Assembly: GCF_012033785.1 (NCBI RefSeq)
Contig: NZ_JAAVJC010000014.1
Coordinates: 1-45,254 of the forward strand
Source: Streptomyces bohaiensis
GTDB taxonomy: Bacteria; Actinomycetota; Actinomycetes; Streptomycetales; Streptomycetaceae
Direction of reading: 5' to 3'
Length of the DNA stretch: 45,254 bases
Under the pieces are notes generated by a model, which worked only from the letters and a program-made list of their open reading frames with translations, searched no databases and had not been told where the DNA came from. The position numbers and the translations under genes were made by a program. This document shows, piece after piece, positions 1-27,814 of this stretch. The number at the start of each line of letters is the position of its first letter. The first letter of the stretch is position 1.

Positions 1-1013
1 CCCCCGCGCCGCAGCCCGCGGCGGCGGTGCTGGGCGGCGCGCTCGCCGGCCACCTGCTGTTCGACGCGCTCGCCGGCACCGGCACGCCCGGCGCGGCCCA
101 CGTGGTGCACGGCGCGGAACTCGCCTCGGAGCCGGTCGTCACCGCCACCCCCGGCGAACCCGCCCGGCCGGTCGCGCTCACCGACGTCCACGCCGACGCC
201 GACACCGAAGCCGACGCCGGGACGGCGGCCGCTGCGGCCCCCACCCCGGAGGAGGCCGTCGAGGCGGTCACCGCCCTGAGCGACCGCTGGACCGGCCTCC
301 TCACCGTCACCCCGGGCCCCGAACTGCCCCAGCTCCCCCTCGCGCTCCGCGAGGCCACCACCGAGGGCGAGCCCGGCCCGCTGGTCGCCTGGGCCGCGGA
401 GCAGCGCACCGCGACCCTCGCGGCGGCGCTGGCCGCGCTGCGCCGCGACCGGCCGGCGGAGCACGGCGTCGCTGCGGCCGGCGTCAGCGAGGAGCAGTGG
501 CTGCTCGACGGCGCGCTGCGCCTGCTCGCCGACACCGCGGAGCCCTGCGGCACCTGGAGTTCCGCCACCGCCGCCCCCGAGACCGCACCGGTGCTGCGGG
601 CCCTCGCGGAGGTCGGTGTCACGCCCCCGGCGGTGACGCTGCTGCGCCGCCCCGGCCTGGACTGGGTCCTGGCGCGGCCGAGCGCGGGAGACACCGACCT
701 TCCGTGGAACGGCGCCAGTTGGGGACGCGACGAGAACGAGGCCGCCCACGGCGTCCTCGGCTCCCTGCTGGCCGCCGTCCAGGCCGCCGCCGCACCCGGC
801 GGGCCGCGCGTCCCGGACGGGGTCCGCACCGACGTGCTGCTCTCCGCCGACCGCGCCGAACTGGCGCTGCTCCGCCGGCAGGCCGTGGCCTGCGCCCTGC
901 GCGACGGGGTCCGCCACGAGGGCACGCCCGACCGCGAGGACCCCGTGCTCGGCACCGTCCCGCTCTGGCGCGGCGCCGTGGCGGCCACCACCCACCCGGC
1001 GGTGGAGGCATGA
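1..1013 (+). CDS. TOMM leader-binding / E1-like (ocin-ThiF-like) protein, 5' end cut by window edge
   Basis: Reading in frame from base 3 gives about 336 residues with no upstream stop. The first possible start (GTG 27) sits inside an Ala/Leu-rich helix, so the gene almost certainly begins left of the window. In azole-RiPP clusters the E1/ThiF-like partner binds the precursor leader and presents the core to the YcaO cyclodehydratase. What remains here is consistent with the C-terminal part of such a protein: an ATP-enzyme-like helix followed by an acidic Ala-rich linker and a domain of about 250 residues with no catalytic motif I can name. The strongest evidence is position: its TGA overlaps the ATG of the YcaO gene (ATGA at 1010-1013), implying translational coupling. 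It could instead be another cluster-specific protein; the missing N-terminus would decide. Confidence 0.55.
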   Translation, partial: PAPQPAAAVLGGALAGHLLFDALAGTGTPGAAHVVHGAELASEPVVTATPGEPARPVALTDVHADADTEADAGTAAAAAPTPEEAVEAVTALSDRWTGLLTVTPGPELPQLPLALREATTEGEPGPLVAWAAEQRTATLAAALAALRRDRPAEHGVAAAGVSEEQWLLDGALRLLADTAEPCGTWSSATAAPETAPVLRALAEVGVTPPAVTLLRRPGLDWVLARPSAGDTDLPWNGASWGRDENEAAHGVLGSLLAAVQAAAAPGGPRVPDGVRTDVLLSADRAELALLRRQAVACALRDGVRHEGTPDREDPVLGTVPLWRGAVAATTHPAVEA

Positions 1014-2944
1014 CCACGACCCACCCCCCGGCGTCCCCGACGGCCGACACCCTCCCCTGCGGCCCCGCGCTCGCCGGCGCCGCCGCCGCGTCCTGGCGCG
1101 CGGTGCTGCATCCCCTGTGGGAGGCGACCGGCGGCCGGACCGCCGTCACCCTCGGCTGGGACGCCGACTGGGAGCGCGACCGGCTCGCCGCCGCCGGCGA
1201 GGACACCCACCTCTCGGTGCGGGTCCTGGCCGACGAGGTGCTGATCGGCCCGCTGCGCGTGCCCGGCACCACCGCCGGCTGCGCGGGGTGCGCCGAGACC
1301 CGCGCCCGGGTCGCCGTGACCCACCCGCTCGCCGCCGACCTCTCCCACGCCACCGGCCGCGCCGCGCCGCGCGCCCCGCTGCTCGCCGCCCTGGTCGCCC
1401 CCGTCGTCGCCCACCTCGCCGAACACCCCCTGGCCCCGGGGGAGCTGTACGCGGTCTCCGGCCGCGGGATCCGCCGCCACCGCGTGCCGCGCCACTTCGG
1501 CTGCCCGCTGTGCGCTGCGCCGGTGCACGACGGACCGCAGGTCCCGCCGCCGCCTCCCCGGGAGTCCCGGTCGCGCCCCGCGCTGCCCGGCAACCCCGGG
1601 CGCGCCGCCGAGGGAGCCGGCCTGCTGCGGCCCGACGCGCTGCGCCGCGCCGTCGTCGACCCCCGCTTCGGCCCGGTCCTCGCCCTGCAACGGGAACTGC
1701 TGGCGCCGTTCGCGATGAGCATGGCCGTCCTCCCGGACGCCATCGCCCTCGGCTACGCCCGGGAGGCGACCTTCGCGGCGTCGGACCCGATCGCCGTCCT
1801 GGAGGCGTACGAACGGATGTCGGGTTTCCCGCACGAGGCCCCGGTCCTGACGGACACCCCCTACACCGCGCTCACCGACGTCGCGATCGACCCCGCCGAC
1901 TTCGGCACGTACACCGAGGAGCAGGCGGCCCGGCCCGGCGCCCGCATCGCCCTGGTCGACGAGCACACCCCGATGGACTGGGTGTGGGGCCACGACCTGG
2001 AGAGCGGCCGCCCCCGCCTCGTCCCGGCCGAGATCGGCTTCTTCCAGTACGACTACCGCTACCGCCGGGACCAGCGCGCCGCCCGCCGCCAGGGCGCCGC
2101 CCCCCGCCGCCACCTCTACCAGGAGTCCTCCAGCGGCTGCGCGCTCGGCTCCAGCTCGGAGGAGGCGGCCCTGCACTCCCTCCTGGAACTGGCCGAGCGC
2201 GACGCCTTCCTGCTGAGCTTCCACCGCGCGCAGCCGCTCCCGGAGATCACGCACGCCTCGATCGGCGACCCGGTCTCGCGCCGGTTGCTCGACCTGATCG
2301 AGTCCCGCGGCTTCGCCGTCCACCTGCTGTGCGCCACCCAGGACCTCGGGGTGCCCGTGGTCTGGTCGCTCGCCGTCAACGGCCGGGAGGTCTTCCCGGC
2401 CACCTTCACCGCCGCCGGTTCCGGCCTCGACCCCGTCTCGGCGGTCCGCGCCGCGCTGTGGGAACTGGGACAGATCGTCACCGACCGTCTCGACTGGGAC
2501 CGCGCCGAGGCCGAGCGGATGCTCGACGACCCCTGGCTCGTCGACGAACTCGACCACCACATCAGGCTCTACGCGCTCCCCGAGCGGCGGGAGCGGGCGA
2601 CCGCCGTGCTCGGCGGCCCCCGCACCACCCTCGCGGAGGCGTTCCCCGACTGGCCGGGCTCCGTCCTGCGGGCGGCGGACGGCGACGTCCGCGGCGCACT
2701 GGACCACGTCCGCGGGCTGTTCGCCGCGGCCGGCCTGGACCGGATCATCCTGGTCGACCAGACCACCCGCGACCACCGGGACCTCGGCCTCGCGGCCGCC
2801 AAGGCCGTGGTGCCGGGCATCGTCCCCATGTGCTTCGGCCACGCCCAGCAGCGGCTCACCGGGCTGCCCCGGCTCACCGCCGCGCTGGCCGGCACGGCGT
2901 ACGAGGGGGCCCGGGCACCCTACGATCCGCACCCCTTCCCCTGA
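1010..2944 (+). CDS. YcaO-domain azoline cyclodehydratase with N-terminal zinc-type Cys tetrad (TbtG-like)
   Basis: Predicted to cyclise Cys/Ser/Thr of the precursor to thiazolines/oxazolines by ATP-dependent amide activation. It has 644 residues. An N-terminal region of about 200 residues carries two Cys pairs, CAGC near residue 91 and CPLC near 165, as in the zinc tetrad of cyclodehydratase partner domains. The YcaO domain starts near 215 and shows the Glu-rich nucleotide-binding helix (SSSEEAALHSLLELAERDA, about 381-399). The extreme C-terminus, PHPFP, resembles the Pro-rich tail of azoline-forming YcaO enzymes. The ATG at 1010 is chosen because it overlaps the upstream stop; the open frame further upstream is only the antiphase of that gene. 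The dehydrogenase gene follows after 19 bases. Substrate is presumably the peptide at 9455. Confidence 0.9.
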   Translation: MTTTHPPASPTADTLPCGPALAGAAAASWRAVLHPLWEATGGRTAVTLGWDADWERDRLAAAGEDTHLSVRVLADEVLIGPLRVPGTTAGCAGCAETRARVAVTHPLAADLSHATGRAAPRAPLLAALVAPVVAHLAEHPLAPGELYAVSGRGIRRHRVPRHFGCPLCAAPVHDGPQVPPPPPRESRSRPALPGNPGRAAEGAGLLRPDALRRAVVDPRFGPVLALQRELLAPFAMSMAVLPDAIALGYAREATFAASDPIAVLEAYERMSGFPHEAPVLTDTPYTALTDVAIDPADFGTYTEEQAARPGARIALVDEHTPMDWVWGHDLESGRPRLVPAEIGFFQYDYRYRRDQRAARRQGAAPRRHLYQESSSGCALGSSSEEAALHSLLELAERDAFLLSFHRAQPLPEITHASIGDPVSRRLLDLIESRGFAVHLLCATQDLGVPVVWSLAVNGREVFPATFTAAGSGLDPVSAVRAALWELGQIVTDRLDWDRAEAERMLDDPWLVDELDHHIRLYALPERRERATAVLGGPRTTLAEAFPDWPGSVLRAADGDVRGALDHVRGLFAAAGLDRIILVDQTTRDHRDLGLAAAKAVVPGIVPMCFGHAQQRLTGLPRLTAALAGTAYEGARAPYDPHPFP

Positions 2945-2963: not shown

Positions 2964-4508
2964 ATGACTTCAGCGACCGGCCACGAGCCCTCGGACGTCG
3001 CGACCCCGGTGCCGCCGGACGTCGACGTCATGTCGCGCGACGTCCGGTGGTTCGCCCACGCGACCGGCACGTCCTGGCCGCCCCCCGGGCATCCGGAGCC
3101 CGCACCGGAACGCCCCGACACCCACGTGGCGCCGGCGCTCCCGGAGGCGGCCCGCGGCCGCGCCGGCCACCCGCTGCCGCACGGGACGAGTGAACTGCTG
3201 GAGCGGGCACCCTTCCCGCACGGCCGGCCCGCCGCCCCGGCCTCACCGCCCGCGGCGCTCGGCCACGCCCTGGTGACCGCGTTCGGCCTGCAACGCCGCG
3301 AGCCCGAGAACCCGTTCAACGACCACCGCCCCTACCCGTCGGTGCGCGCCCGCTTCCCGGTGCAGGCGTTCGTCCAGGACGCGCACCGCGCCACCGTGCT
3401 CGACCTCCACCGCCACGCGCTGGTCGGCCTCGGGGCCGACCCGGGTGGGGACGGCCCCGCCGAGCCGGCGGCCGAGGTGCTGCTCGCCGGCCGCTACACC
3501 CGGCTCCCGGACTCCTACCGCTGGTTCCGCGGCTCGCTGGTGCACCTGGAGATGGGCATCGCCCTGCGGCAGCTCGCCCTGGGGCTGGAGCTGTTCGGGC
3601 TGCGCGGCACCGTCCGGCTGCCCGGCCCCGCGACCGCACCGCTGCTCACCGCGCTCGGCCCCGGCGCGGAGGAGGAGTGGAGCCTGCCGCTGTCGGTGGG
3701 CGTCGACGCCGCGGCGTTCCCCGCCGCGGACCCGCTCCCGGCCCCCGGCCCCGTGCCGCGGGACGACGCCGGAGCGCCCCCGCACCGGGTGGACCCCGTC
3801 CTCGACGAGACCGTGGCGCTCAACCGCACACAGGAGTTCGACGGCCCCGCCGAACCCCTGACCTCCGCCCTGCCGGCCGGCGGCCCCGCCTCCCCGCTCT
3901 CCTGGGCCGAGGTGCTGTGGCGCCGCAGCGCGGGACGGATGCCCCGCGGCATGTACGGCATGAGCGGCCGCCGCCGCACCGTCCCCGCCGAGGTGCTGGC
4001 CGAGACCGCCCGCTGGCTGGCGGTCCCGCCGCCCGGCCCGACCCTGGCGGAGATCGCGGGGGCCGTGCGGGTCACCGGCGTCGTCCAGGGCGTGGCCGGC
4101 CACCGCGACGGCGTCCACCACCTCGTCGACGGCCGGCCCGTGCTCGTCCGGGAGGACCCCGGCGCGGCCGCCGAGCTGGAGACCCACTACGGCTACCGGG
4201 TCGACCCCTACAACGGCGGCGACATCCGGCACGCCACGGCGGTGTGGTTCCTCTCCGTCCGGCCCCGCGAACTGGTGGAGCGGTTCGGGCGGGGGGCCTT
4301 CACCGCCGCCCAGTACGTGGCGGGCTGGCAGTCGCAGGGCATCTCGCTGGCCGCCGCGGCCGCCGGCCTCTACGCCCGTCCCGCCCGCGCCTTCCGTGAG
4401 ATCCCGTCCCAGCGCGTCCTCGGCCTCCCCGCCGACGAGATGGTGCTCTGCACGGTGATCACCGGCACCCCGCGCTACCGGGGCCTCCTGTGCGACCTGC
4501 GGATCTGA
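2964..4508 (+). CDS. SagB-type FMN-dependent azoline dehydrogenase (nitroreductase fold, TbtE-like)
   Basis: Predicted to oxidise azolines to aromatic azoles using FMN. It has 514 residues, within the range of the long, two-half thiopeptide dehydrogenases. The Pro/Ala-rich N-terminus (about 1-100) looks disordered. A first half (about 110-240) contains a Tyr/Trp-rich LPDSYRWFRGS segment, and the C-terminal half (about 300-514) holds the nitroreductase-like region, with a Ser-rich GWQSQGISLAAAAAGL helix and a closing ITGTPRYRG strand. A GGAG ribosome site at 2952-2955 is 8 bases from the ATG. It sits between the YcaO gene and the SpaB_C gene, as expected for an azole-RiPP operon. The N-terminal half is poorly conserved and I cannot assign FMN contacts residue by residue. 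Confidence 0.8.
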   Translation: MTSATGHEPSDVATPVPPDVDVMSRDVRWFAHATGTSWPPPGHPEPAPERPDTHVAPALPEAARGRAGHPLPHGTSELLERAPFPHGRPAAPASPPAALGHALVTAFGLQRREPENPFNDHRPYPSVRARFPVQAFVQDAHRATVLDLHRHALVGLGADPGGDGPAEPAAEVLLAGRYTRLPDSYRWFRGSLVHLEMGIALRQLALGLELFGLRGTVRLPGPATAPLLTALGPGAEEEWSLPLSVGVDAAAFPAADPLPAPGPVPRDDAGAPPHRVDPVLDETVALNRTQEFDGPAEPLTSALPAGGPASPLSWAEVLWRRSAGRMPRGMYGMSGRRRTVPAEVLAETARWLAVPPPGPTLAEIAGAVRVTGVVQGVAGHRDGVHHLVDGRPVLVREDPGAAAELETHYGYRVDPYNGGDIRHATAVWFLSVRPRELVERFGRGAFTAAQYVAGWQSQGISLAAAAAGLYARPARAFREIPSQRVLGLPADEMVLCTVITGTPRYRGLLCDLRI

Positions 4509-4521
4509 AGGAGACACTGCG

Positions 4522-5562
4522 TTGAACCACCCACCGCCGGAGCCCGCCACCGCTCAGCCGGCCACCCCCGCGGCCCCCGACATGCCCGCGCCTGCCGCCC
4601 CCGCCGGCGCGGCCGCCCCGGGGGACGGGGACACGGCGTGGCGCGCGTGGCACCTCCACCTCGGCACCCTCGCCGTAGCCGCCCACGACCGGGTGGTGAC
4701 CGAGGTGGTGGCGGCCGCCGTCGCCGCCGTCCCCGGACACCCCTGGTTCTTCCTGCGGTACTGGCACGGCGGGCCCCACGTGCGGCTGCGGATCGCGGGA
4801 CTCGACCAGCAGGGCGCCGAGCGCGTCGAGGCGGTCCTCGCCGAGAAGCTGCCCGCCGCCGGCAGCCCCCGCGACGGCGAGGAGCCGATCGCGCCGGAGG
4901 AGTACCGGCGGAACGCGGCGCGGATGACCGCCGCGGGCGACGAGCCCACCCACGCCGAGGTGGAGGAACTCCTCGCCCCCGGCGTCCACCGCTTCGCCTA
5001 CCACCCGGAGTACGAGCGGTACGGCGGCGCCGCCCTGCTGCCGGAGTCCGAGCGCCTCTTCCACCTCTCCAGCGGGCTCTGCCTCGCCTTCCTGCGCCGC
5101 GCCCCGTCGCCCGGCGCCCGCGCCGCCCTGGCGCTGCGCGCCGCCCACGCGGCCGGGCGGGCCCTCGGCGACGCCGAGGAGGAGGCGGCCTTCGCGCATC
5201 TGGGCCTCCGGGCGTGGCGCGGCTGGGCCACCGGCTTCGGCTACGGCCCCCAGCAGGTCGACCAGGTGTGCCGGTCCGCCGGCCCGGTCCCCGTCCCGGC
5301 CGACCCCGGACCGCTGGCGCCCTGGCGCGACGCCCTCGCGGCGCTGGCCGAGCGCGTGCGCGCGGAGACCGACCTGCACCCCGGCCAGGTCCTCTCCTCC
5401 CACGTCCATATGCTGCACAACCGGCTCGGGCTGCGGGTGATCGAGGAGCTCCAGACGTACGCCCGGCTCACCCATCTCGTCGAGGGACCCGCGCCCTCGT
5501 CCTTCGACCCCGACCATCCCTCCCAGGGCGCGACCCGCCCGGACCTTCAGGAGCGCCAGTGA
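4522..5562 (+). CDS. Stand-alone SpaB_C / thiopeptide-type biosynthesis protein (Ser-glutamate elimination or azine-forming cyclase)
   Basis: The conserved block WFFLRYWHGGPHVRLRI (about residues 75-91) and the later YERYGGAALLPESERLFH segment place this in the lantibiotic-dehydratase C-terminal family (thiopeptide-type bacteriocin biosynthesis domain). Members either eliminate glutamate from glutamyl-Ser/Thr to give dehydroamino acids (TbtC, GodG) or perform the [4+2] pyridine-forming cyclisation (TbtD, LazC). Sequence alone does not tell me which. At 346 residues it is a single domain; no partner LanB N-terminal glutamylation enzyme is inside the window. The start is TTG 4522, supported by AAGGAG at 4508-4513; ATG 4582 is the alternative and would remove a low-complexity Pro/Ala head. 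The stop overlaps the ABC ATPase start. Confidence 0.75.
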   Translation: MNHPPPEPATAQPATPAAPDMPAPAAPAGAAAPGDGDTAWRAWHLHLGTLAVAAHDRVVTEVVAAAVAAVPGHPWFFLRYWHGGPHVRLRIAGLDQQGAERVEAVLAEKLPAAGSPRDGEEPIAPEEYRRNAARMTAAGDEPTHAEVEELLAPGVHRFAYHPEYERYGGAALLPESERLFHLSSGLCLAFLRRAPSPGARAALALRAAHAAGRALGDAEEEAAFAHLGLRAWRGWATGFGYGPQQVDQVCRSAGPVPVPADPGPLAPWRDALAALAERVRAETDLHPGQVLSSHVHMLHNRLGLRVIEELQTYARLTHLVEGPAPSSFDPDHPSQGATRPDLQERQ

Positions 5563-6476
5563 ACAGCAGTCAGGTGGCCGTGGACGTCCACGCCGAGCCC
5601 GCCGACACCCGCACCGTCGTCGCCCAGGCGATCGGCCTGACCCGGCGCTACGGCGACCACACGGCCCTGGACGGGGTCGACTTCACCGTGCGGGAAGGGG
5701 AGATGATCGGCCTGCTGGGGCCCAACGGCGCCGGCAAGTCCACGCTGCTCAACTCCCTGGTGGGGCTGCGGCGCCCGTCCGCCGGGCGGTGCGAGCTGTT
5801 CGGCGGCGACCCCTCCGTCCCGGCCAACCGCCGCGCGCTCGGCATGACGCTGCAGGAGACCGGGGTGCCCGGCACCCTCAAGGTCGCCGAGGCGGTGGAC
5901 CTGATCGCCGCCCACTACCCGGAACCGGAGGACCGGGACACGCTGCTGGCGCGGTTCGGCCTCGACGAGGTGGCCCGCCGCCAGGCCGGCGGCCTCTCCG
6001 GCGGGCAGAAGCGCCGACTGGCGCTGGCGCTGGCCTTCGTCGGCCGCCCCCGGCTGGTCATCCTCGACGAGCCGACCACCGGCCTGGACGTGGAGTCGCG
6101 CCGGATGCTGTGGGACTCCATCCGCGAGTTCCACGCCGGCGGCGGCACCGTGCTGCTGACGAGCCACTATCTGGAGGAGATCGAGGCGCTTGCCGAGCGG
6201 GTGGTCGTCCTCGTCGGCGGCCGGGTGATCGCGGATGACACCGTGGACGCCGTCCGCGGCCTGGCCCGGGTCCACCGGGTGAGCATGGTCGCCGGCGAGC
6301 TGCCGGAGCTGCCCGGGGTCCTCAGCGTGGAGCGCGCCGACCAGCGGGTCCACGTGATGACCAGCGACGCCGACGAGCTGATCCGGGCGCTGGTCCGCCT
6401 CGACGTGGACTTCTCCGGCCTGGAGGTCCAGCAGGCAACCCTCGAAGAAGCCTTCCTTACGATCTCCGGATCCTGA
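5559..6476 (+). CDS. ABC transporter ATP-binding protein (RiPP export/self-resistance)
   Basis: A 305-residue DrrA/CcmA-type ATPase. Walker A GPNGAGKST is at about 54-62, signature LSGGQKRR at about 145-152, Walker B LVILDEPTTGLD at about 166-177, and the switch His in LLTSHY at about 199. The GTG at 5559 overlaps the TGA of the upstream gene (GTGA) and has AGGAG at 5549-5553. The open frame extends far upstream, but only as antiphase of the SpaB_C gene. It pairs with the permease that starts 17 bases after its stop. Placement inside the azole operon suggests export of, or immunity to, the product; the substrate is inferred. Confidence 0.9.
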   Translation: MNSSQVAVDVHAEPADTRTVVAQAIGLTRRYGDHTALDGVDFTVREGEMIGLLGPNGAGKSTLLNSLVGLRRPSAGRCELFGGDPSVPANRRALGMTLQETGVPGTLKVAEAVDLIAAHYPEPEDRDTLLARFGLDEVARRQAGGLSGGQKRRLALALAFVGRPRLVILDEPTTGLDVESRRMLWDSIREFHAGGGTVLLTSHYLEEIEALAERVVVLVGGRVIADDTVDAVRGLARVHRVSMVAGELPELPGVLSVERADQRVHVMTSDADELIRALVRLDVDFSGLEVQQATLEEAFLTISGS

Positions 6477-6493
6477 CCGAAAGCGCCGCCACC

Positions 6494-7231
6494 ATGTCTC
6501 TCGCACTCGTCCACACCCGCTACCAGCTGACCCAACTGGTCCGCATCCCCGTCGCGATCCTCGGAGCGGCGTTCTTCCCCGCGGCCTCGCTGGTCTTCTT
6601 CGTGGTGCCCAACACCCGCGACAACCCGGCCGGCGCGACGCTCGCCACCGCCTCGATGGTGGTCTTCGCGGTCATGATCAGCAATCTCTTCGGCCACGGC
6701 ACCGGCGTCGCCGAGGACCGGTCGCGGCCCTGGGACCCCTACACCCGCACCCTGCCGATCGGGCCGGCGGTCCAGTTCCTGAGCCGCATCTTCACCGGCA
6801 TCGTGATGATGATGGTCTCCCTGGTGCCGGTCGTGATCATCGCGGCGCTCTTCACCCCCGCCACCCTCTCGTTCGGCGCCTTCGTGCTCGCCATCGGCAC
6901 GGTGCTGCTGGTGTCGCTGCCCTTCACCATGATGGGCCTGGCCATCGGCTACTCGATGTCCACCAAGGCGGCGCTCGCCATCGTCCAGCTGATCTTCCTG
7001 CCGCTCGCCTTCGGCGGCGGCCTGATGAGCACCCCCGGTGACGAGCCCGGCTTCATCCAGACCATCGCCCCCTACGTCCCGACGCGGGGCGCGGTGGAGC
7101 TGATGTGGGCCGTCGTCGGCGACCACCAGGTCAACCCGACGTCCGTGGTCTCGCTGGCGGTGTGGACCGTGCTCTTCGGATCGCTCGCCGTGCTCGCCTA
7201 CCGCCGCGACGAGGGCCGACGCTTCCACTGA
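6494..7231 (+). CDS. ABC-2 type transporter permease
   Basis: A 245-residue integral membrane protein with about six hydrophobic segments: VAILGAAFFPAASLVFFVV, TASMVVFAVMISNLF, then segments around residues 95-130, 135-160, 170-190 and 220-240. It is the membrane partner of the preceding ATPase and completes a two-component DrrAB-like exporter at the end of the azole operon. The upstream ribosome site is weak (GAAAG), consistent with coupled translation. After its stop there are about 230 bases before the converging monooxygenase gene. Confidence 0.85.
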   Translation: MSLALVHTRYQLTQLVRIPVAILGAAFFPAASLVFFVVPNTRDNPAGATLATASMVVFAVMISNLFGHGTGVAEDRSRPWDPYTRTLPIGPAVQFLSRIFTGIVMMMVSLVPVVIIAALFTPATLSFGAFVLAIGTVLLVSLPFTMMGLAIGYSMSTKAALAIVQLIFLPLAFGGGLMSTPGDEPGFIQTIAPYVPTRGAVELMWAVVGDHQVNPTSVVSLAVWTVLFGSLAVLAYRRDEGRRFH

Positions 7232-9148: not shown

Positions 9149-9454
9149 GCTGTTCCCCTTCGTGGAGACGTCGTACGGCGTCCCGGCGCCGCGGCGGGCG
9201 GGGCCCGCCGGGCCTTGGCCCGCCGCGGTGATCGCCTCGCGCGGATCGCCCCGGCGACCGGGCCGGTGGAGCATCCACCACCAAGTACACGCCAGGAAGG
9301 AGGAGTCGGTACCCGCGGCCGAGTGACGGCGGGCCAAGTAGTGATAAATGTCAGCGACCCCCATCCGGCGATTGCTGCGACCGGAACGCGTTGGTCACGA
9401 TGCGTGTCACCAGTCTCCCGACTGGCGTCGTTTCACAACTGAAGGGGTATTCCG
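9149..9454. promoter_or_regulatory. Divergent intergenic region between monooxygenase and precursor peptide
   Basis: About 306 bases separate the two divergent start codons, and I see no convincing gene. The relatively AT-rich stretch at 9336-9352 (TAGTGATAAATG) could supply a -10 element for the precursor, with a GTGACG-like -35 near 9323, which would leave a leader of about 100 bases. The opposite-strand reading of the same patch, TTTATCACTACTTGG, could serve the monooxygenase. No promoter here is clear-cut. Confidence 0.35.
9410..9425 (+). promoter_or_regulatory. Short dyad in the precursor 5' leader
   Basis: CCAGTC at 9410-9415 and GACTGG at 9420-9425 form a 6-bp inverted repeat around the loop TCCC. 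It ends 16 bases before the AAGGGG ribosome site of the precursor. It may be an operator half-site pair or an RNA hairpin in the leader; this is a weak call. Confidence 0.3.
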
Positions 9455-18029: not shown

Positions 18030-18221
18030 ACACATCGCGCGGAGGAGGACAACCGCCCGGCGAAGGTTCCTGATATGTGTCACGGCCGCACGGCGACACC
18101 CGCCACCGGGCGCGGTCGTGCACTAGCTTGGCGGCCGGGCTGCCACCGGCCCCCCGCCCCGGCAGGGCACGCGGGGGAGCCGACCCGACCGGCAGCACGA
18201 CCGCGGACCGGGGGAGTGGGC

Positions 18222-20263: not shown

Positions 20264-21411
20264 TCAACGTCTTTCAACCGAGCCTCGGCGAGGCGGAACT
20301 GGCGGCGGTGGCCGAGGTGTTCGCCTCCAACTGGCTCGGCAGCGGCCCGCGCACCCGCGCCTTCGAGGAGCAGTTCGCCGACCACCTCGGCGTCGACGCC
20401 GACCAGCTGCTCTTCACCAACTCCTGCACCGCCGGGCTGTTCCTCGCCGCCGAACTCCTCGAACTGGGCCCGGGCGACGAGGTGGTGATGCCCTCGGTGA
20501 GCTTCGTCGCCGCCGCCAACGCCGTCGCCGCCACCGGCGCACGCCCCGTGTTCTGCGATGTGGACCCCCGCAGCCTCAACCCCACCGCCGAGCACATCGA
20601 ACAGGCGCTCACCGACCGCACCCGCGCCGTGGTGGTCCTCCACTTCGGCGGCGACCCCGGGGAGGTCGCCGCCATCGCCCGACTGTGCCGCGCCCGAGGC
20701 GTCCCGCTGGTGGAGGACGCCGCCTGCGCCGTCGCCTCCACGGTCGACGGACGACGCTGCGGCACCTTCGGCGACATCGCGGTGTGGAGCTTCGACGCGA
20801 TGAAGGTCATGGCCACCGGCGACGGCGGGATGCTCCACGTCCGCGACCCCGAACTCGCCCGCCGCGCCCGCGTCCTCGCGTACCACGGCCTCGCCCGCCC
20901 CAGCGGCTACGCCTCGGCCCGCGTCTCCTCCCGCTGGTGGGAGCTGGACGTCACCGACTTCGGCCGCCGCGTGCTGGGCAACGACCTGACCGCCGCCATC
21001 GGCACTGTGCAACTGCGGCGGCTCCCGGAGTTCGTCGAGCGCCGCAGCGCCGTCGCCGCCGCCTACGACACCCTGCTCGCCGACGCCGAGGGCGTCCGCC
21101 TCCCGCCGCGGCCCGCAGCCGGCCGCACCTCCTCCCATTACTTCTACTGGGTCCAACTGGACCCCGCGGTGCGCGACCGGGTCGCCGCCACCCTGCTGGA
21201 ACGCGACATCTACACGACGTTCCGGTACCCGCCGCTGCACCGGGTCCCGGCCTACGGCACCGACCACCCGGAGCTGCCCGGCACCGACGCGGCCGCCGAG
21301 TCGACCCTGCTGCTCCCGCTCCACCAGGCACTCACCGACGAGGAGGTGGCGACGGTCGCGAGGGAGCTGCGGGCCGCCGTCGCCCACCACGCGGCCCCCG
21401 CCCGCGTCTGA
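20260..21411 (+). CDS. DegT/DnrJ/EryC1-family sugar aminotransferase (SpnR-like)
   Basis: A 383-residue PLP enzyme. It opens with INVFQPSLGEAEL and has NSCTAGLFLAAELL, EDAACAVAST, and the Schiff-base Lys in SFDAMKVMATGDGG (about residue 182). The family transaminates keto-deoxysugars; here C4 of 4-keto-2,3,6-trideoxyhexose is the expected substrate because the neighbours remove O2 and O3. GTG 20260 overlaps the glycosyltransferase stop, and GGGAGGA at 20247-20253 is well placed. Distinguishing C4 from C3 amination rests on pathway context, not on residues I can see. Confidence 0.88.
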   Translation: MINVFQPSLGEAELAAVAEVFASNWLGSGPRTRAFEEQFADHLGVDADQLLFTNSCTAGLFLAAELLELGPGDEVVMPSVSFVAAANAVAATGARPVFCDVDPRSLNPTAEHIEQALTDRTRAVVVLHFGGDPGEVAAIARLCRARGVPLVEDAACAVASTVDGRRCGTFGDIAVWSFDAMKVMATGDGGMLHVRDPELARRARVLAYHGLARPSGYASARVSSRWWELDVTDFGRRVLGNDLTAAIGTVQLRRLPEFVERRSAVAAAYDTLLADAEGVRLPPRPAAGRTSSHYFYWVQLDPAVRDRVAATLLERDIYTTFRYPPLHRVPAYGTDHPELPGTDAAAESTLLLPLHQALTDEEVATVARELRAAVAHHAAPARV

Positions 21412-21459: not shown

Positions 21460-22065
21460 GTGCAGATCGAGGAGACCGCCGTCGCGGGGGTCCACGTCAC
21501 CACCCCCCGCCACCTGCCCGACGAACGCGGCACCTTCCACGAGGGGTTCCGCACCGACCTGCTGGAGGCCGCTGTCGGCCGCCCCTTCGTGCCGCGCCAG
21601 CAGAACCTCTCCGTCTCCCGCCGCCACACCCTGCGGGGCATCCACAGCGTCACGGTGCCGCCGGGCCAGGCCAAGTACGTCAGCTGCGTCCGCGGCGCGG
21701 TCCGCGACATCGTGGTCGACCTGCGGATCGGGTCACCGACCTTCGGCCGCCACCACGTCACCGAGCTGACCGCGGAGTCCGGCCGCGCCGTCTACATCCC
21801 CGAAGGCGTCGGCCACGGCTTCCTCGCGCTCACCGACGACAGCTGCGTCTCCTACCTGCTCTCCGGCCTCCACGTGCCGGGCACCCAGATCGACATCGAC
21901 CCCTTCGACCCCGAACTGGCCCTCCCCTGGGACTGCCCGGCGCCTCCGCTGCTGTCCCCCAAGGACACCGCGGCCCCCAGCCTCGCCCAGGTCCGCGCCG
22001 CCGGCGCCCTCGCCCGGTGGGACGACGCCGCCCGCCGACCCGTCACGACGGGAGACCGCGCATGA
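21460..22065 (+). CDS. dTDP-4-keto-6-deoxyhexose 3,5-epimerase-like (RmlC family)
   Basis: A 201-residue cupin of the RmlC family. DERGTFHEGFR is near residue 21, the catalytic His is in TLRGIHS (about 61), and AVYIPEGVGHGFLAL (about 109-123) carries the active-site Tyr. The usual C-terminal Asp region appears as DPFDPELALPW. RmlC enzymes epimerise C3/C5; several deoxysugar homologues act at C5 only. Its presence points to an L-configured sugar such as ossamine rather than D-forosamine, though such genes are sometimes retained without need. GTG 21460 has AAGGGAG at 21446-21452; the stop overlaps the thymidylyltransferase start. Confidence 0.88.
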   Translation: MQIEETAVAGVHVTTPRHLPDERGTFHEGFRTDLLEAAVGRPFVPRQQNLSVSRRHTLRGIHSVTVPPGQAKYVSCVRGAVRDIVVDLRIGSPTFGRHHVTELTAESGRAVYIPEGVGHGFLALTDDSCVSYLLSGLHVPGTQIDIDPFDPELALPWDCPAPPLLSPKDTAAPSLAQVRAAGALARWDDAARRPVTTGDRA

Positions 22066-23096
22066 AGGCCCTCGTGCTGGCCGGGGGGCTGGGCACCCGG
22101 CTGCGGCCCGTGACCCACACCATGCCCAAGCAGCTCATTCCGCTCGCCAACCGGCCGGTCCTGGAACACGTCCTGGACGACCTGCGGCCCCTCGGCGTCC
22201 GGGAGATCGGCGTCGTCGTCGGCGACTGGGGGCCCGACATCGCCGCCCGCGTCGGCGACGGGTCCCGGTTCGGCGCCCGCATCACCTACATCCCCCAGGA
22301 ACGCCCGCTGGGCCTGGCCCACTGCGTCTCCATCGCCCGGCCCTTCCTCGGCGACGACGACTTCGTGATGTACCTGGGCGACAACCTCATCCAGGACGGC
22401 GTCACCGCCACGGCCGAGCAGTTCGCCGCACGCCGCTCCGACGCCCACCTCGCCGTCGCCCGGGTCGCCGACCCCCGCTCCTTCGGGGTCGCCGAACTCG
22501 ACGCGCACGCCGAGGTGGTGCGGCTGGTGGAGAAGCCGCGCCACCCCCGCAGCGACCTCGCGCTGATCGGCGTCTACTTCTTCTCCGCCGCCATCCACCG
22601 CGCCGTCGCCGCCATCACCCCCAGCGCCCGCGGCGAACTGGAGATCACCGACGCCGTGCAGTGGCTGCTGGACCGCGGCGCCCGCGTCACCGCGGGCGAG
22701 TACACCGGGTACTGGCGCGACACCGGACGCATCGAGGACCTGCTCGACTGCAACCGGCGCCTGCTGGACGCCCTCGCCGCCGACCGCGGCGGCCCCGCCG
22801 ACCGGGTCCTCCTGGCGCCCGGCGCCACCACCGCGCGCTCCACCCTCACCGGCCCGGTGCTGATCGGGGCGGGCTCGGTCGTCGAGAACTGCCGCATCGG
22901 GCCGGGCACCTCGATAGGCGAAGGATGTGTCGTGCGCGACAGCACACTGGAGAACTGCATCGTGATGGACGGCGCGCGCGTCGTCGGACGGCACGGCCTG
23001 CGGGACGCCCTCCTCGGCCCCGCCACCGCGCTCGGGACCGGGCCGCACGACGCCCGCCTCGGCGCCCCCGCCGGCCCCCTGGAGGTGACCGCGTGA
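22062..23096 (+). CDS. Glucose-1-phosphate thymidylyltransferase, long form (StrD/RmlA-like)
   Basis: A 344-residue nucleotidyltransferase that makes dTDP-glucose. It opens MKALVLAGGLGTRLRPVTH, with PKQLIPLANRPVLEH following and YLGDNLIQDG near 101. The C-terminal ~100 residues contain hexapeptide-like beta-helix repeats (IGPGTSIGEGCVVRDS), as in the long antibiotic-cluster form. ATG 22062 overlaps the epimerase stop and its own stop overlaps the 4,6-dehydratase start. It supplies the first committed sugar nucleotide of the pathway. Confidence 0.93.
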   Translation: MKALVLAGGLGTRLRPVTHTMPKQLIPLANRPVLEHVLDDLRPLGVREIGVVVGDWGPDIAARVGDGSRFGARITYIPQERPLGLAHCVSIARPFLGDDDFVMYLGDNLIQDGVTATAEQFAARRSDAHLAVARVADPRSFGVAELDAHAEVVRLVEKPRHPRSDLALIGVYFFSAAIHRAVAAITPSARGELEITDAVQWLLDRGARVTAGEYTGYWRDTGRIEDLLDCNRRLLDALAADRGGPADRVLLAPGATTARSTLTGPVLIGAGSVVENCRIGPGTSIGEGCVVRDSTLENCIVMDGARVVGRHGLRDALLGPATALGTGPHDARLGAPAGPLEVTA

Positions 23097-24091
23097 GAGT
23101 CCTCGTCACGGGCGGCGCCGGCTTCGTCGGCTCCCACTACGTCCGCACCCTCCTCGCCGGCGGCTACCCCGGGTACGAGAGCGCCGAGGTCACCGTCCTC
23201 GACAAGCTGAGCTACGCCGGCAACGCCGAGAACATCCCGCTCTCCCACCCCCGACTGCGCCTCGTCCGCGGCGACATCTGCGACGCCGCACTCCTGCGCG
23301 AGGTGCTGCCCGGCCACGACGCCGTGGTCCACTTCGCGGCCGAGTCCCACGTCGACCGCTCGCTCGACGACCCCGGTGTCTTCACCCGCACCAACGTCCT
23401 CGGCACCCAGACCCTGCTCGACGCGTGCCTGCGCGCCGCCGTGCCGCGCATGGTGCACATCTCCACCGACGAGGTCTACGGCAGCATCACCGAGGGCTCC
23501 TGGACCGAGCGCTCCCCGCTGGAACCCAACTCGCCCTACGCCGCCTCCAAGGCCGCCTCCGACCTGGCGGTGCGGGCGTACTGGCGGACCTTCGGGCTGA
23601 ACGTCTCGATCACCCGGTCCTCCAACACCTACGGGCCGCACCAGCACCCGGAGAAGCTCATCCCGCACTTCACCACGCGCCTGCTGGACGGCGAGCCCGT
23701 ACCGCTGTACGGCACCGGCCGCAACGTCCGCGACTGGGTGCACGTCGACGACCACGCGCGCGCCGTGCAGACCGTGCTCACCGGCGGCGCCGCCGGCGAG
23801 GTGTACCACGTCGGCGGCGGCAACGAACTCACCAACCTCGCCATCACCGACCGGCTCCTCGCCCTCTGCGGCGCCGACCCCGCGCTGGTGCGGCACGTCG
23901 CCGACCGCAAGGGGCACGACCAGCGCTACTCGCTGGACTGCACGAAGATCCGCGACGAGCTCGGCTTCACCCCGCGCGTCGGCTTCGACGACGGACTGGC
24001 CGCCACCGTCGACTGGTACCGGCACCACCGCGGCTGGTGGCAGCGGGCGCAGCAGCGCACCCGCGACGAGCAGGAAGGGACGTCCGCATGA
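23093..24091 (+). CDS. rfbB: dTDP-glucose 4,6-dehydratase (RmlB)
   Basis: A 332-residue extended SDR. TGGAGFVGSH at 5-14 binds NAD; AAESHVDRS is near 83; the catalytic STDEVYG lies at about 124-130, with YAASK at about 149-153. The C-terminal half has RSSNTYGPHQHPEKLIPHF and RDWVHVDDHARA, both typical of the family. It converts dTDP-glucose to dTDP-4-keto-6-deoxyglucose, the branch point to all 6-deoxysugars. GTG 23093 overlaps the upstream stop and its TGA overlaps the next ATG. Confidence 0.95.
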   Translation: MRVLVTGGAGFVGSHYVRTLLAGGYPGYESAEVTVLDKLSYAGNAENIPLSHPRLRLVRGDICDAALLREVLPGHDAVVHFAAESHVDRSLDDPGVFTRTNVLGTQTLLDACLRAAVPRMVHISTDEVYGSITEGSWTERSPLEPNSPYAASKAASDLAVRAYWRTFGLNVSITRSSNTYGPHQHPEKLIPHFTTRLLDGEPVPLYGTGRNVRDWVHVDDHARAVQTVLTGGAAGEVYHVGGGNELTNLAITDRLLALCGADPALVRHVADRKGHDQRYSLDCTKIRDELGFTPRVGFDDGLAATVDWYRHHRGWWQRAQQRTRDEQEGTSA

Positions 24092-25398
24092 GCGAGGACC
24101 ACCGCCGGGCGGTCCTGGAGGAGACCCGGAAGTACCACCGGAGCCTGCGCGGCCCCGAGGAGTTCGTCCCCGGCGTCACCGAGATCTGGCCCTCGGGAGC
24201 GGTGCTGGACGAGACCGACCGCGCCGCCCTCGTCGAGGCCGCCCTCGACCTGCGGATCGCCGCCGGCCCCGCCTCCCGGAAGTTCGAGTCCTCCTTCGCG
24301 CGGCTGCTCAAGCGCCGCAAGGCGCACCTGACCAACTCCGGCTCCTCCGCCAACCTCCTCGCCCTGACCGCCCACACCTCCTCCCACCTGCCCGAGGAAC
24401 GCCGGCTGCGCGCCGGCGACGAGGTCATCACGGTCGCGGCCGGCTTCCCCACCACCGTCAACCCGATCGTGCAGAACGGGATGGTGCCGGTCTTCGTCGA
24501 CATCGACCCCACCACCTACAACACCACCGCCGACCGCGTCGCCGCCGCGATCGGACCGCGCACCCGCGGCATCATGATCGCCCACGCCCTCGGCAACCCG
24601 TTCGAAGTGGCCGAGATCGCCCAACTCGCCGCCGACCACGGCCTGGTCTTCATCGAGGACAACTGCGACGCGGTCGGCTCGACCTACCAGGGGCGGCTGA
24701 CGGGAACCTTCGGCCACGCCAGCACGGTCAGCTTCTACCCCGCGCACCACCTGACGATGGGGGAGGGCGGCATCGTCACCACCTCCGACCTCCGGCTCGC
24801 CCGGATCGTGGAGTCGCTGCGCGACTGGGGCCGCGACTGCTGGTGCGAGCCCGGCAAGAACGACACCTGCCTGAAGCGGTTCGACCAGCAGTTCGGCGAC
24901 CTGCCCTCCGGTTACGACCACAAGTACGTCTTCTCGCACATCGGGTACAACCTGAAGTCGACCGACCTCCAGGCCGCTCTCGGGCTCTCCCAACTCACCC
25001 GCCTCGACGAGTTCGTCGCCGCCCGGCGCCGCAACTGGCGCCGCATGCGCGAGGGGCTCGACGGGGTGCGCCACCTGCTGCTGCCCGAGCCCACCCCCGG
25101 CAGCGAACCGAGCTGGTTCGGCTTCGTCATGACGGTCGCCCCCGACGCCCCCTTCACCTGCGGCGAGTTGACCGGCTTCCTGGAGAGCCGCCGGATCGGC
25201 ACCCGGCGCCTGTTCGCCGGCAACCTCACCCGCCAACCCGCCTACCGGAACATCCCGCACCGGGTCGTCGGCGAGCTCACCCACAGCGACACCGTCATGA
25301 CCAGCACCTTCTGGACCGGCGTGTACCCGGGCCTCACCGACGAGATGATCGACTACGTCGTCGCCTCCGTACGGGAGTTCACGGCGGGCCGAGGATGA
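24088..25398 (+). CDS. rfbH: PLP/[2Fe-2S] 4-keto-6-deoxyhexose 3-dehydrase (RfbH/SpnQ-like)
   Basis: A 436-residue member of the E1/ColD/SpnQ group. The usual Schiff-base Lys is replaced by His in SFYPAHHLTMGEGG (about 216-229), the hallmark of the C3-deoxygenating subgroup. The [2Fe-2S] Cys cluster motif DCWCEPGKNDTC follows at about 250-261. These enzymes remove the C3 hydroxyl by radical chemistry. SpnQ in forosamine biosynthesis works with general cellular reductases, which fits the lack of a dedicated E3-like reductase here. Overlapping start and stop codons on both sides show it is embedded in the sugar operon. Confidence 0.93.
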   Translation: MSEDHRRAVLEETRKYHRSLRGPEEFVPGVTEIWPSGAVLDETDRAALVEAALDLRIAAGPASRKFESSFARLLKRRKAHLTNSGSSANLLALTAHTSSHLPEERRLRAGDEVITVAAGFPTTVNPIVQNGMVPVFVDIDPTTYNTTADRVAAAIGPRTRGIMIAHALGNPFEVAEIAQLAADHGLVFIEDNCDAVGSTYQGRLTGTFGHASTVSFYPAHHLTMGEGGIVTTSDLRLARIVESLRDWGRDCWCEPGKNDTCLKRFDQQFGDLPSGYDHKYVFSHIGYNLKSTDLQAALGLSQLTRLDEFVAARRRNWRRMREGLDGVRHLLLPEPTPGSEPSWFGFVMTVAPDAPFTCGELTGFLESRRIGTRRLFAGNLTRQPAYRNIPHRVVGELTHSDTVMTSTFWTGVYPGLTDEMIDYVVASVREFTAGRG

Positions 25399-26777
25399 GG
25401 CCCGGCACCGCCGAGCACCCCGCGGCGTCCGCCACGCGGGAGCGGCTCGCCCGCTCCGCCGCGGCGACCGGCTCCCCGGGCCTCGCCGCCGACGTCCGCG
25501 ACTGGCTCGCCTCCCGGGGCCGGGCCCGACCCTCCCGGGTCCGGCGGATACCCCTCGCCGCGCTCGACGGCTGGCGGTTCGAGGAGGACGGCGGCGACCT
25601 CGCACACACCAGCGGCCGGTTCTTCCGTGTCGAGGGCGTCCGGATCGACGGCGGCCCCCACCCCTTCGGCGACTGGCAGCAGCCGATCATCCGGCAGCCC
25701 GAGATCGGCCTCCTCGGCATCCTGGCCAAGGAGTTCGACGGCGTCCTGCACTTCCTGATGCAGGCCAAGATGGAGCCCGGCAACCCCAACCTGCTCCAGC
25801 TCTCACCCACCGTGCAGGCCACCCGCAGCAACTACCAGCGCGCGCACGGCGGTTCCGCCGTCCGGTACCTCGACCACTTCACCGGTGACCGCCCCGGCCG
25901 GCCGCTGACCGACGGACTCCAGTCCGAGCACGGCTCCTGGTTCTGGCAGAAGTCCAACCGCAACGTCGTCGTCGAGACCGACGCGGAGGTGGCCCCCGAC
26001 CCCGACTTCCGCTGGTTCACCCTCGGGGAACTGGGCGCCCTGCTCCACCACGACGACCTCGTCAACATGGACTCCCGCTCCGTCCTGGCCTGCCTGCCCG
26101 CGCCGCGGCCCGGCGGCACCCCGCGGCACACCGCCGTGGAGATCGCCTCCTGGCTGACGGGGGAGCGCGCCCGCCGCCGCCTCCTCGCCCGGCCGGTCCC
26201 GCTGCGTTCCGTGGCGGGGTGGACCCGCGAGGAGTCCGCGGTACGGCACCGGGAGGACCGCTGGTTCCGGGTGGTCGCCGTCGCGGTGGAGAGCGAGAGC
26301 CGTGAGGTGGCCGGCTGGACCCAGCCGCTGTTCGAGCCGTGCGGGCCGGGCGTCACCGCGTTCCTCGTCCGCCGGATCGGCGGCGTCCCCCACCTGCTGG
26401 CCCAGGCCCGAGCCGAACCCGGCCTGCTGCACACCGTCGAGATCGCCCCCACCGTCCAGTACGCGCCGCACAACTACGCCCACCTGCCGACCGCGGCCCG
26501 GCCGCGCCACGCCGACCTCGTCGCCGCCGCCACCGGTCCCGCGGTGCGCTACTCCGCCCTCCACTCCGACGAGGGCGGCCGCTTCCTCGACGCCCGCACC
26601 CGCTGCCTGTTCGTCTCCGTCGACCACCTCGACGACCCCGCCGCCGACGACCCGGGGCCCGGCTTCTGCTGGCTCACCCCCGACCAGCTCGGCGCCCTCA
26701 CCCGGCAGGGCCACCAGGTCAACGTGCAGGCGCGTACGCTGCTCTCCGTCCTGCACACCGGAGGAGTGACGCTGTGA
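25395..26777 (+). CDS. NDP-hexose 2,3-dehydratase (SpnO/EvaA-like)
   Basis: A 460-residue two-repeat protein of the hexose 2,3-dehydratase family. Each half (about 50-235 and 250-460) repeats a Nudix-like unit: VQATRSNYQRAHGG in the first and VQYAPHNYAH in the second, with FRWFTLGELGALLHHDDLVN and FCWLTPDQLGALTRQGHQVN as matching closing segments. It eliminates the C2 hydroxyl from 4-keto-6-deoxy sugars, and the product is then reduced by the next gene. ATG 25395 overlaps the previous stop. Confidence 0.93.
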   Translation: MRPGTAEHPAASATRERLARSAAATGSPGLAADVRDWLASRGRARPSRVRRIPLAALDGWRFEEDGGDLAHTSGRFFRVEGVRIDGGPHPFGDWQQPIIRQPEIGLLGILAKEFDGVLHFLMQAKMEPGNPNLLQLSPTVQATRSNYQRAHGGSAVRYLDHFTGDRPGRPLTDGLQSEHGSWFWQKSNRNVVVETDAEVAPDPDFRWFTLGELGALLHHDDLVNMDSRSVLACLPAPRPGGTPRHTAVEIASWLTGERARRRLLARPVPLRSVAGWTREESAVRHREDRWFRVVAVAVESESREVAGWTQPLFEPCGPGVTAFLVRRIGGVPHLLAQARAEPGLLHTVEIAPTVQYAPHNYAHLPTAARPRHADLVAAATGPAVRYSALHSDEGGRFLDARTRCLFVSVDHLDDPAADDPGPGFCWLTPDQLGALTRQGHQVNVQARTLLSVLHTGGVTL

Positions 26778-27814
26778 CCGGCCACGACCGGCCCGGGACC
26801 GGGAGCGACCGCCCCGCGGTGCGGGTCGCGGTCCTCGGCACCGCCGACATCGCCCGGCGCCGCATGCTGCCCGCGTTCGCCGCGTGCCCCGACACCACCG
26901 TCGCCGTCGTCGCCGGCCGGGACCCGGAACGGACCGCCGCGCTCGCCCGTTCCTACGGCTGCCGCGCCGCCGCCACCTACGACGAGCCGCTCGCCGACGA
27001 CACCGTCGACGCGGTCTACGTGCCGCTGCCCAACTCGCTGCACCACCGCTGGGCGCGCGCCGCGCTGCTGGCCGGCAAGCACGTGCTGGTCGAGAAGCCG
27101 GCCGCGACCTCGGCGGCGGACGCCGAGGAACTGGTGGCCCTCGCCCGCGACCGCGGCCTCGCCCTGGTGGAGAACGTCCTCTTCCCCCACCATCCGCAGC
27201 ACCGGGAGGCCGTGCGGCTCGTCACCGACGGGGCGATCGGCCGGGTCCAGTCGCTGGAGGCGGCGTTCACCGTCCCGCGCCGCGCCGAGGGCGACATCCG
27301 CCACCGCCCGGAGCTCGGCGGCGGGGCACTGTGGGACGTCGGTGTCTACCCCGTGCGGGCGGCCCTCCACCTGGCAGCGGTGCTCATGCCACCCGGCGCC
27401 CCTCCGGGACCGCCGGGCGCGTCCCCGCTCCGGCTCGTCGGCGCCACCTCCCGCCGCCGGCCCGGCGAGGCGGTGGACACCGCCGGCAGCGCCCTCCTCG
27501 ACGCGGGCGAGGGTGTCGCCGTCCAGCTCACCTACGGCCTCGACCACGCCTACCGCAGCAGCTACACCCTGCACGGCACCACGGGACGCCTCACCGTCGA
27601 GCCCGCGTTCACTCCGCCCGCCGACCACCGCCCGCTCCTGCGGCTGGAGCGCGACGGCACCGTGCACGACCACCCCGCGGCCGCCGCGGACCAGGTCGCC
27701 CGCGCGGTGGCGGCGTTCGCCCAGGCGGTGCGCACGCGCGCGGAGCCCAGCGGCGACCTGGTGACCCAGGCCCGCCTCCTCGCGGCCGTCGCCCGCGCCG
27801 CGGCACCTGCCTGA
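26774..27814 (+). CDS. NDP-hexose 3-ketoreductase (Gfo/Idh/MocA family, SpnN-like)
   Basis: A 346-residue oxidoreductase. The NAD(P)-binding strand VRVAVLGTADIARRRML is followed by a VVAGRDPERTAALA turn, and the family signature EKPAATS lies at about 107-113. It reduces the 3-keto intermediate released by the 2,3-dehydratase, giving 4-keto-2,6-dideoxyhexose. GTG 26774 overlaps the dehydratase stop; the longer open frame upstream is antiphase of that gene. It is the last gene of the sugar operon and the right-hand end of the recognisable cluster. Confidence 0.92.
   Translation: MTGHDRPGTGSDRPAVRVAVLGTADIARRRMLPAFAACPDTTVAVVAGRDPERTAALARSYGCRAAATYDEPLADDTVDAVYVPLPNSLHHRWARAALLAGKHVLVEKPAATSAADAEELVALARDRGLALVENVLFPHHPQHREAVRLVTDGAIGRVQSLEAAFTVPRRAEGDIRHRPELGGGALWDVGVYPVRAALHLAAVLMPPGAPPGPPGASPLRLVGATSRRRPGEAVDTAGSALLDAGEGVAVQLTYGLDHAYRSSYTLHGTTGRLTVEPAFTPPADHRPLLRLERDGTVHDHPAAAADQVARAVAAFAQAVRTRAEPSGDLVTQARLLAAVARAAAPA

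Follow-up and report, generated by a model that had tools for sequence, protein, structure and literature searches.

Do the three sets of biosynthetic genes that lie side by side at one end of a Streptomyces bohaiensis contig build one molecule? In this study, we analysed NZ_JAAVJC010000014.1 (assembly GCF_012033785.1), whose 45,254 nucleotides are called the window here; the window is one entire contig (G000:C55) of an assembly of 547 contigs that is 99.2% complete. A first-pass annotation, made from the sequence alone, had read positions 1 to 27,814 as genes for an azole-containing ribosomally synthesized and post-translationally modified peptide (RiPP), for 3-amino-4-hydroxybenzoic acid (3,4-AHBA) and for a dimethylamino-tetradeoxysugar, jointly making a glycosylated polyazole with a 3,4-AHBA-derived ring. 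Genes were read from codon-position GC calling, open reading frame (ORF) listing and family scans with NCBIfam and Pfam models, and every component named in that annotation was confirmed. Comparison with relatives points to a thiopeptide cluster in which the 3,4-AHBA genes are a core part and the sugar genes an optional accessory. We infer that all parts are joined in one molecule, and a single glycosylated, AHBA-bearing thiopeptide, its attachment point left aside, is probable.

Class of the ribosomal peptide

The precursor peptide scores above the cut-offs of two thiopeptide precursor models (TIGR03892, 38.6 bits against 25; PF19409, 30.6 bits against 23.5). A search of 5.8 billion proteins (E up to 0.001) yielded 14 homologues, one of them from the window itself, and all 14 end in Cys. 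Twenty distinct cores were read from 39 of 44 loci (the precursor motif matched nothing in L006, L008, L013, L026 and L033, some of which are short contigs). Each of the 20 begins with Ser, contains exactly one Cys-Ser pair and ends in Cys; a single Cys-Ser pair would be expected in 5.8 of 20 after shuffling residues, a comparison that is not a clean test because the cores are related. Such a single pair fits one [4+2] site, at which Ser1 would react with the Ser that follows the last ring thiazole.

The cluster also has a YcaO protein with a predicted azoline dehydrogenase and a LanB split into glutamylating and eliminating proteins, beside a leader-type precursor starting with Ser. The glutamylating LanB is on a small contig, C342, that ends about 11 residues short of the window start; tblastn with the leader-binding protein of the relative XM4193 found residues 1–261 on C342 and 273–620 in the window, and the XM4193 LanB homologue matches 6ec7. 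In the predicted elimination protein (g4), the stretches HMxHNRL and RxWxxGxHxRxR are invariant in 25 of 25 aligned sequences, and a comparison with the PDB gave no match at E up to 1. Layout and distances were compared between the window and 16 sister loci, in which the length of flank seen varies, and a TbtD/PbtD-like pyridine synthase is encoded in all 16. The S. pini protein is nearest to PbtD and TbtD, scoring 131.7 bits with NF045556 against a strict cut-off of 325. The LanB N-terminus is absent from the window strain's assembly, and the strain's own pyridine synthase presumably lies in the same gap.

Because of the precursor models, the LanB, the elimination-type protein and the pyridine synthase of the relatives, the azole-RiPP part of the cluster is very probably a thiopeptide; the azole RiPP of the first-pass annotation stands, and its generic polyazole gives way to this class. 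A linear azole peptide or an oxazole-rich polyazole macrocycle without pyridine, bearing the AHBA unit and the sugar, would account for a core that is a run of heterocyclisable residues and for the missing pyridine synthase gene. Set against the matched precursor models, the LanB on C342, the TbtD/PbtD-type protein in every sister locus and the Ser1 and lone Cys-Ser of all 20 cores, it is very improbable, and its plain linear form was rejected in view of the LanB and the precursor family.

Some further features of these genes were seen along the way. Two tandem precursor genes occur in L007, L009–L012, L014–L017, L025, L028, L029, L034 and L057–L063; their cores are identical within group B (defined below) and differ in L025, L028, L057 and L058. 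Group B loci carry a second, canonical SagB dehydrogenase beside the precursor (L021:1869–3413 and equivalents; TIGR03605, 155 bits); no counterpart was found in the window or in group A, where only the divergent g3 is present. The end of C342 (L055, 2950–3054) has a short LanB match on the opposite strand and about 35 unrelated residues before the LanB start, probably an assembly artefact at the gap.

Linkage of the 3,4-AHBA and sugar genes to the thiopeptide genes

A YcaO scan of GTDB species genomes gave 33 loci. GriH, the 3,4-AHBA synthase, is present in 30 of these 33 YcaO-bearing genomes (9/9 and 21/24 in two sets). By eye comparison of coordinates, it lies within about 25 kb of YcaO in 26 genomes and elsewhere in four (L008, L013, L020 and L026), where a contig end is near YcaO. 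As a background, 54 of 295 genomes sampled from the genus have GriH (E up to 1e-60), cluster carriers among them; this control of co-occurrence is one-sided, covering GriH only. With GriH as the starting point, 31 more places were fetched, 10 in a thiopeptide cluster and 21 outside; they comprise 26 new places above 500 bits and five weaker ones from the genus sample, the remaining weaker ones being left out. In a GriH tree of 42 rows, a branch supported at 100/99 unites all 21 thiopeptide-linked rows, and none of 500 label shuffles was as clustered. Of 53 tblastn rows, the tree holds 42, the 11 left out duplicating genes already present because their loci overlap, and L031 (Micromonospora musae) is the only member of the second set of 24 YcaO-bearing genomes in it.

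Two arrangements recur. Group A (XM4193, S. tardus, S. pini, ST2-7A, S. megasporus and S. barkulensis) has the order pyridine synthase, LanB, leader-binding protein, YcaO, g3, g4, the ABC pair, the first flavin monooxygenase (FMO1, reverse) and then the precursor, with ligase, GriI, GriH and FMO2 directly downstream; the precursor was not found in the S. megasporus locus. Group B (Actinacidiphila soli, S. canus, CB01635 and others) has ligase, GriI and GriH upstream, on the precursor's other side and reversed. Across both arrangements, GriI, GriH, the ligase and FMO2 are found in the window and in 16 of 16 sister loci. Pairwise distances among YcaO, GriH, GriI and the ligase correlate at r 0.90–0.96 (17 loci). 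A third arrangement, unique among the loci, was seen in M. musae (L083, L084), where about 13–24 kb separate YcaO from GriH, GriI, a multicopper oxidase and a pyridine-synthase-like ORF.

These comparisons indicate that the 3,4-AHBA module belongs to the core of the thiopeptide cluster. The claim that the modules belong together survived the search for their conserved separation in relatives: AHBA and RiPP genes occur together in the window and in every sister locus, though at differing cluster positions, and the linked GriH proteins form one clade. The adjacent DhnA-type aldolase and GriH-type synthase have BagB/FevI and BagC/FevH as their best NCBIfam matches. It is very likely that the AHBA unit enters the same product as the thiopeptide. 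The genes could instead form two adjacent pathways, one for a glycosylated thiopeptide and the other for a small AHBA metabolite of its own, resembling crexazone or grixazone. Such a split has precedent in Streptomyces sp. CS057, where a neighbouring nonribosomal peptide synthetase region is unrelated to the AHBA cluster (PMC11429834), and homologues of FMO2 stand near GriH in 8 of the 21 non-thiopeptide loci (L069, L072, L073, L074, L078, L080, L081 and L087). The frequency of GriH in YcaO-bearing genomes, its single clade, the constancy of the four genes through two arrangements and the group A precursor followed directly by ligase, GriI and GriH all argue against two pathways, which we consider improbable.

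Six of the 16 sister loci have a multicopper oxidase (L004:1784–3262, reverse strand, with homologues in L059–L063) next to their AHBA or methyltransferase genes. The S. pini protein is generic, scoring 158 bits with the PhsA model against a cut-off of 950. In some relatives this enzyme may oxidise the aminophenol unit; a phenoxazinone-linked dimer was dropped as a general mechanism, given the generic character of the S. pini protein and no homologue found in the window.

By family, the sugar genes make up a forosamine-type set: RmlA, RmlB, 2,3-dehydratase, 3-ketoreductase, 3-dehydrase, 4-aminotransferase, N,N-dimethyltransferase and glycosyltransferase. They predict a 4-dimethylamino-2,3,4,6-tetradeoxyhexose, the regiochemistry of aminotransferase and ketoreductase being a matter of inference, and because an RmlC-type epimerase is present the sugar is probably of the L series. 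Its oxonium ion, C8H16NO+, would have m/z 142.1226. The set is complete or nearly so in the window and in 4 of 16 sister loci (XM4193, S. tardus, G148 and G099), and partly different in one (ST2-7A); the epimerase is present in the window, XM4193 and S. tardus, and none was found at the G148 or G099 locus. From glycosyltransferase to ketoreductase, the genes of XM4193 and S. tardus are ordered as in the window, in a block that is reversed and upstream of the pyridine synthase. Thus, of the proposed co-occurrence of three modules, that of AHBA and RiPP genes held, and the sugar genes appear to be an optional accessory travelling with the cluster. Their sugar is likely carried by the same product as the thiopeptide. 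The methyltransferase g13 has CalS10 and further sugar N,N-dimethyltransferases as its matches and occurs only in sister loci with sugar genes. A second methyltransferase, g17, is present in 8 of 16 sister loci, three of them without sugar genes, and was therefore rejected as the sugar methyltransferase.

The ligase and the proposed product

The first-pass annotation had named an aryl ligase. An adenylating ligase (g9) is indeed present; its best matches are amide bond synthetases, suggesting direct amidation rather than loading onto a carrier. By sequence and by fold, g9 is nearer to amide bond synthetases than to coenzyme A ligases: its first five sequence matches are McbA and ShABS entries (6sq8/6h1b and 8pyy/8ppp/8pyx), its first 15 fold matches are McbA and ShABS, and its identity to McbA is 38–39%. 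In McbA and ShABS, a single site serves both to adenylate an aryl or heteroaryl acid and to join it to an amine, and no carrier takes part (PMC6282839, PMC10804368). Nosiheptide-like loading was rejected, as no carrier protein, NosK-like transferase or radical SAM family appeared among the family matches of the 25 genes in 1–27,814. The terminal Cys of the core would give a thiazole-4-carboxylate, which resembles the acids accepted by McbA. FMO2, in turn, has tropone 2-monooxygenase (289 bits), 4-hydroxybenzoate decarboxylase (227) and vanillate 1-hydroxylase (216) as its nearest solved structures.

The ligase kinship, the terminal Cys and the FMO2 relatives led us to propose decarboxylation of AHBA followed by C-terminal amidation. 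YcaO, its leader-binding partner and g3 would convert Cys to thiazoles and perhaps some Ser to oxazoles, and the LanB of C342 and g4 would turn remaining Ser into dehydroalanine. A TbtD-like pyridine synthase would then join Ser1 to Ser9, which belongs to the only Cys-Ser pair, and release the leader, leaving a tail in which seven residues derive from Ser and four from Cys, with a thiazole-4-carboxylate at its end. GriI and GriH would supply 3,4-AHBA, which FMO2 would likely convert to an aminohydroquinone by oxidative decarboxylation; the McbA-like g9 would adenylate the thiazole acid and couple the aromatic amine without a carrier protein. FMO1 and g17 may tailor the product, and g18 would attach the sugar made by g13 and g19–g25, most plausibly on a phenol oxygen.

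A C-terminal amide as the attachment point of the AHBA-derived unit is plausible at clearly less than an even chance. The fuller proposal, of a separate thiopeptide series whose core ends as thiazole-4-carboxylic acid so that an McbA-like synthetase can weld on the amine of a 3,4-AHBA-derived aminohydroquinone, is tentative and itself rather unlikely. The product may instead be composite with the ligase activating the carboxyl of 3,4-AHBA, either to acylate a peptide side chain, in the manner of the indolic acid of nosiheptide-type thiopeptides, or to couple a second AHBA unit. ClxA, an ATP-dependent ligase, joins two 3,4-AHBA molecules in the closoxazole case (PMC12519233), the cores of nosiheptide and persiathiacin carry attached aryl acids (PMC11406533), and the ligase gene of group A directly precedes griI and griH. 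Acylation is less easily reconciled with McbA and ShABS as the nearest relatives, with the family matches of the 25 genes, which include none of the loading proteins named above, or with a thiopeptide that has no free N-terminal amine after loss of the leader; we regard it, too, as possible but rather unlikely.

Several observations weigh against a single composite product. No product is known for the cluster. Three of the 33 genomes (L025, L028 and L030) have the thiopeptide module without GriH; the ligase is still encoded in L025 and L030, so it need not act with a partner made from AHBA. GriI and GriH score under the strict Bag/Fev cut-offs, so their substrate identity is taken from the nearest family, and the distance correlations could be explained by vertical descent alone. 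Two queries did not find a pyridine synthase in the window strain's assembly, where the adjoining LanB N-terminus is missing too. Eleven of the 16 sister loci showed no sugar genes in the stretches fetched. Glycosyltransferases of the TIGR04516 type usually require a partner protein, and no activator partner for g18 was recognised in the window. Finally, McbA and ShABS reportedly make poor use of anilines (PMC12519233).

The genomes without GriH have cores of a CC-poly-Ser-CC form (L025, L028 and L030), and in L028 and L030 an ORF that looks by eye like a cupin/JmjC protein follows g4.

The features of the cluster are collected in Table 1. Family models gave no match for g1. The drrA-type score of g5, 199 bits, is under the model's cut-off, and g6 has no NCBIfam match. 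FMO1 has a homologue in 11 of 16 sister loci, and g16 has one covering more than 60% of the query in five. The cluster end was set at about 27.8 kb because general-metabolism-like genes come next, such as one for an exopolyphosphatase-like protein, along with a MarR/HxlR-like regulator. A short reverse ORF proposed by the gene caller (9433–9633) was not accepted as a gene; it overlaps the precursor on the opposite strand. A plasmid origin was also rejected, as a search of 72,556 plasmid records (E up to 1) did not find the precursor; GriH was met in 13 plasmid records, all below 60% identity.

Table 1. Genes and predicted functions in the left part of the window
Feature	Position	Strand	Basis
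g1, leader-binding (ThiF-like) thiopeptide protein, C-terminal part, truncated by contig end	3..1013	+	tblastn
g2, YcaO azoline cyclodehydratase with leader-binding region	1010..2944	+	TIGR03604 228.9 bits, TIGR03882 57.9, PF02624 228
g3, predicted azoline dehydrogenase, double nitroreductase fold	2964..4508	+	predicted fold only
g4, SpaB_C protein, predicted glutamate-elimination enzyme (TbtC role)	4582..5562	+	PF14028, TIGR03891
g5–g6, ABC exporter ATPase and permease (export or self-protection, predicted)	5559..7231	+	g5 drrA-type model
g7 (FMO1), MhpA-like flavin monooxygenase	7463..9274	-	NF004829 559 bits (cut-off 390)
precursor peptide, core SSGDTTCCSSSSSSSSCCCC after leader end LPEMGA	9455..9625	+	TIGR03892 and PF19409, above cut-off
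g9, adenylating ligase, amide-bond-synthetase type	9717..11327	+	sequence and fold matches to McbA, ShABS
g10, GriI-type aldolase	11324..12166	+	NF041223 380 bits (cut-off 500); PDB MJ0400 249 bits
g11, GriH-type 3,4-AHBA synthase	12138..13238	+	NF041224 591 bits (cut-off 750); GriH tree clade
g12 (FMO2), predicted decarboxylating aryl hydroxylase	13307..14467	+	nearest solved structures
g13, sugar N,N-dimethyltransferase	14560..15276	+	CalS10 246 bits, 3bxo 244
g14, LuxR-type regulator	15318..15974	+	PF00196
g15, LuxR-type regulator	16079..16687	-	weak response-regulator models
g16, membrane protein	17493..18029	+	DUF7010, under cut-off
g17, methyltransferase, not linked to sugar genes	18216..18872	+	PF13649
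g18, activator-dependent-family glycosyltransferase	18896..20263	+	TIGR04516 427 bits (cut-off 440)
g19, sugar C-4 aminotransferase (predicted)	20260..21411	+	PseC and WecE-type models, under cut-off
g20, RmlC-type epimerase	21460..22065	+	TIGR01221 126 bits (cut-off 156)
g21, RmlA glucose-1-phosphate thymidylyltransferase	22062..23096	+	TIGR01208 370 bits (cut-off 320)
g22, RmlB dTDP-glucose 4,6-dehydratase	23093..24091	+	TIGR01181 412 bits (cut-off 365)
g23, C-3 dehydrase (RfbH type)	24088..25398	+	NF011936 652 bits (cut-off 423)
g24, NDP-hexose 2,3-dehydratase	25395..26777	+	PF03559 482 bits
g25, Gfo/Idh-type 3-ketoreductase (predicted)	26774..27814	+	PF01408 90 bits

Comparison with known systems

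A literature search for thiopeptides with 3,4-AHBA, aminophenol or forosamine, the coverage of which left out most subscription journals, gave no described product, in agreement with the earlier statement that none is known with all three parts. The cluster is thus a variant thiopeptide cluster, likely for one molecule, whose combination of AHBA and sugar appears in no literature found. The sugar module follows the logic of the spinosyn forosamine pathway, which proceeds by 2- and 3-deoxygenation, 4-amination and N,N-dimethylation; it differs in its RmlC-type epimerase, which suggests the L-series isomer. The GriI/GriH-type pair is shared with grixazone, crexazone, ferroverdin/bagremycin and closoxazole, and FMO2 relatives lie near non-thiopeptide GriH. 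Ferroverdin and bagremycin are small molecules into which AHBA is built. The grixazone, crexazone and closoxazole pathways also build AHBA into small molecules, and the portions of the reports available describe no RiPP partner there (PMC11429834, PMC12519233). McbA and ShABS act on free small acids, whereas the acid proposed for g9 would be the modified C-terminus of a peptide; if so, g9 would form amide bonds as these synthetases do, with a ribosomal peptide as its substrate.

Among the literature found, the nearest characterised molecules are nocathiacin, philipimycin and persiathiacin, the glycosylated series e thiopeptides, which also unite a ribosomal thiopeptide, an aromatic acid activated by an adenylating enzyme and deoxysugars (PMC11406533). 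Their aromatic unit is an indolic acid held on a carrier protein or domain, in contrast to the GriI/GriH pair and the amide-synthetase-like ligase found here; series e cores, such as that of persiathiacin, SCTTCECSCSCSS, end in Ser-Ser, whereas the cores here end in Cys (PMC11406533). The nosiheptide-type side-ring machinery (NosL, NosJ, NosK and NosN) was not seen among the family matches of the 25 genes in 1–27,814, the upstream gap lying outside this view. Thiopeptides are potent inhibitors of protein synthesis whose poor solubility limits clinical use (PMC11406533). If our reading is true, this lineage would offer solubilising or redox-active groups, in the form of a basic amino sugar and a unit derived from an aminophenol, together with the enzymes that add them. 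Under the C-terminal proposal, a scaffold resembling translation inhibitors would gain a head group that is redox-active or binds metal, and in this strain a forosamine-like sugar as well.

In print, this family was traced only to a cryptic thiopeptide of Streptomyces venezuelae NRRL B-65442 (locus RS25565–25620) with the core SSGSIGTSSSSSSTCSAC, whose product was not detected (PMC9769785, PMC11256431). Its core is that of group B and is identical in 18 of the 44 loci examined; judged by this printed core, it belongs to the sister group, in whose loci, so far as they were seen, the sugar genes of the window are absent. Through this identity, our analysis offers a concrete hypothesis for the cryptic thiopeptide of a model organism.

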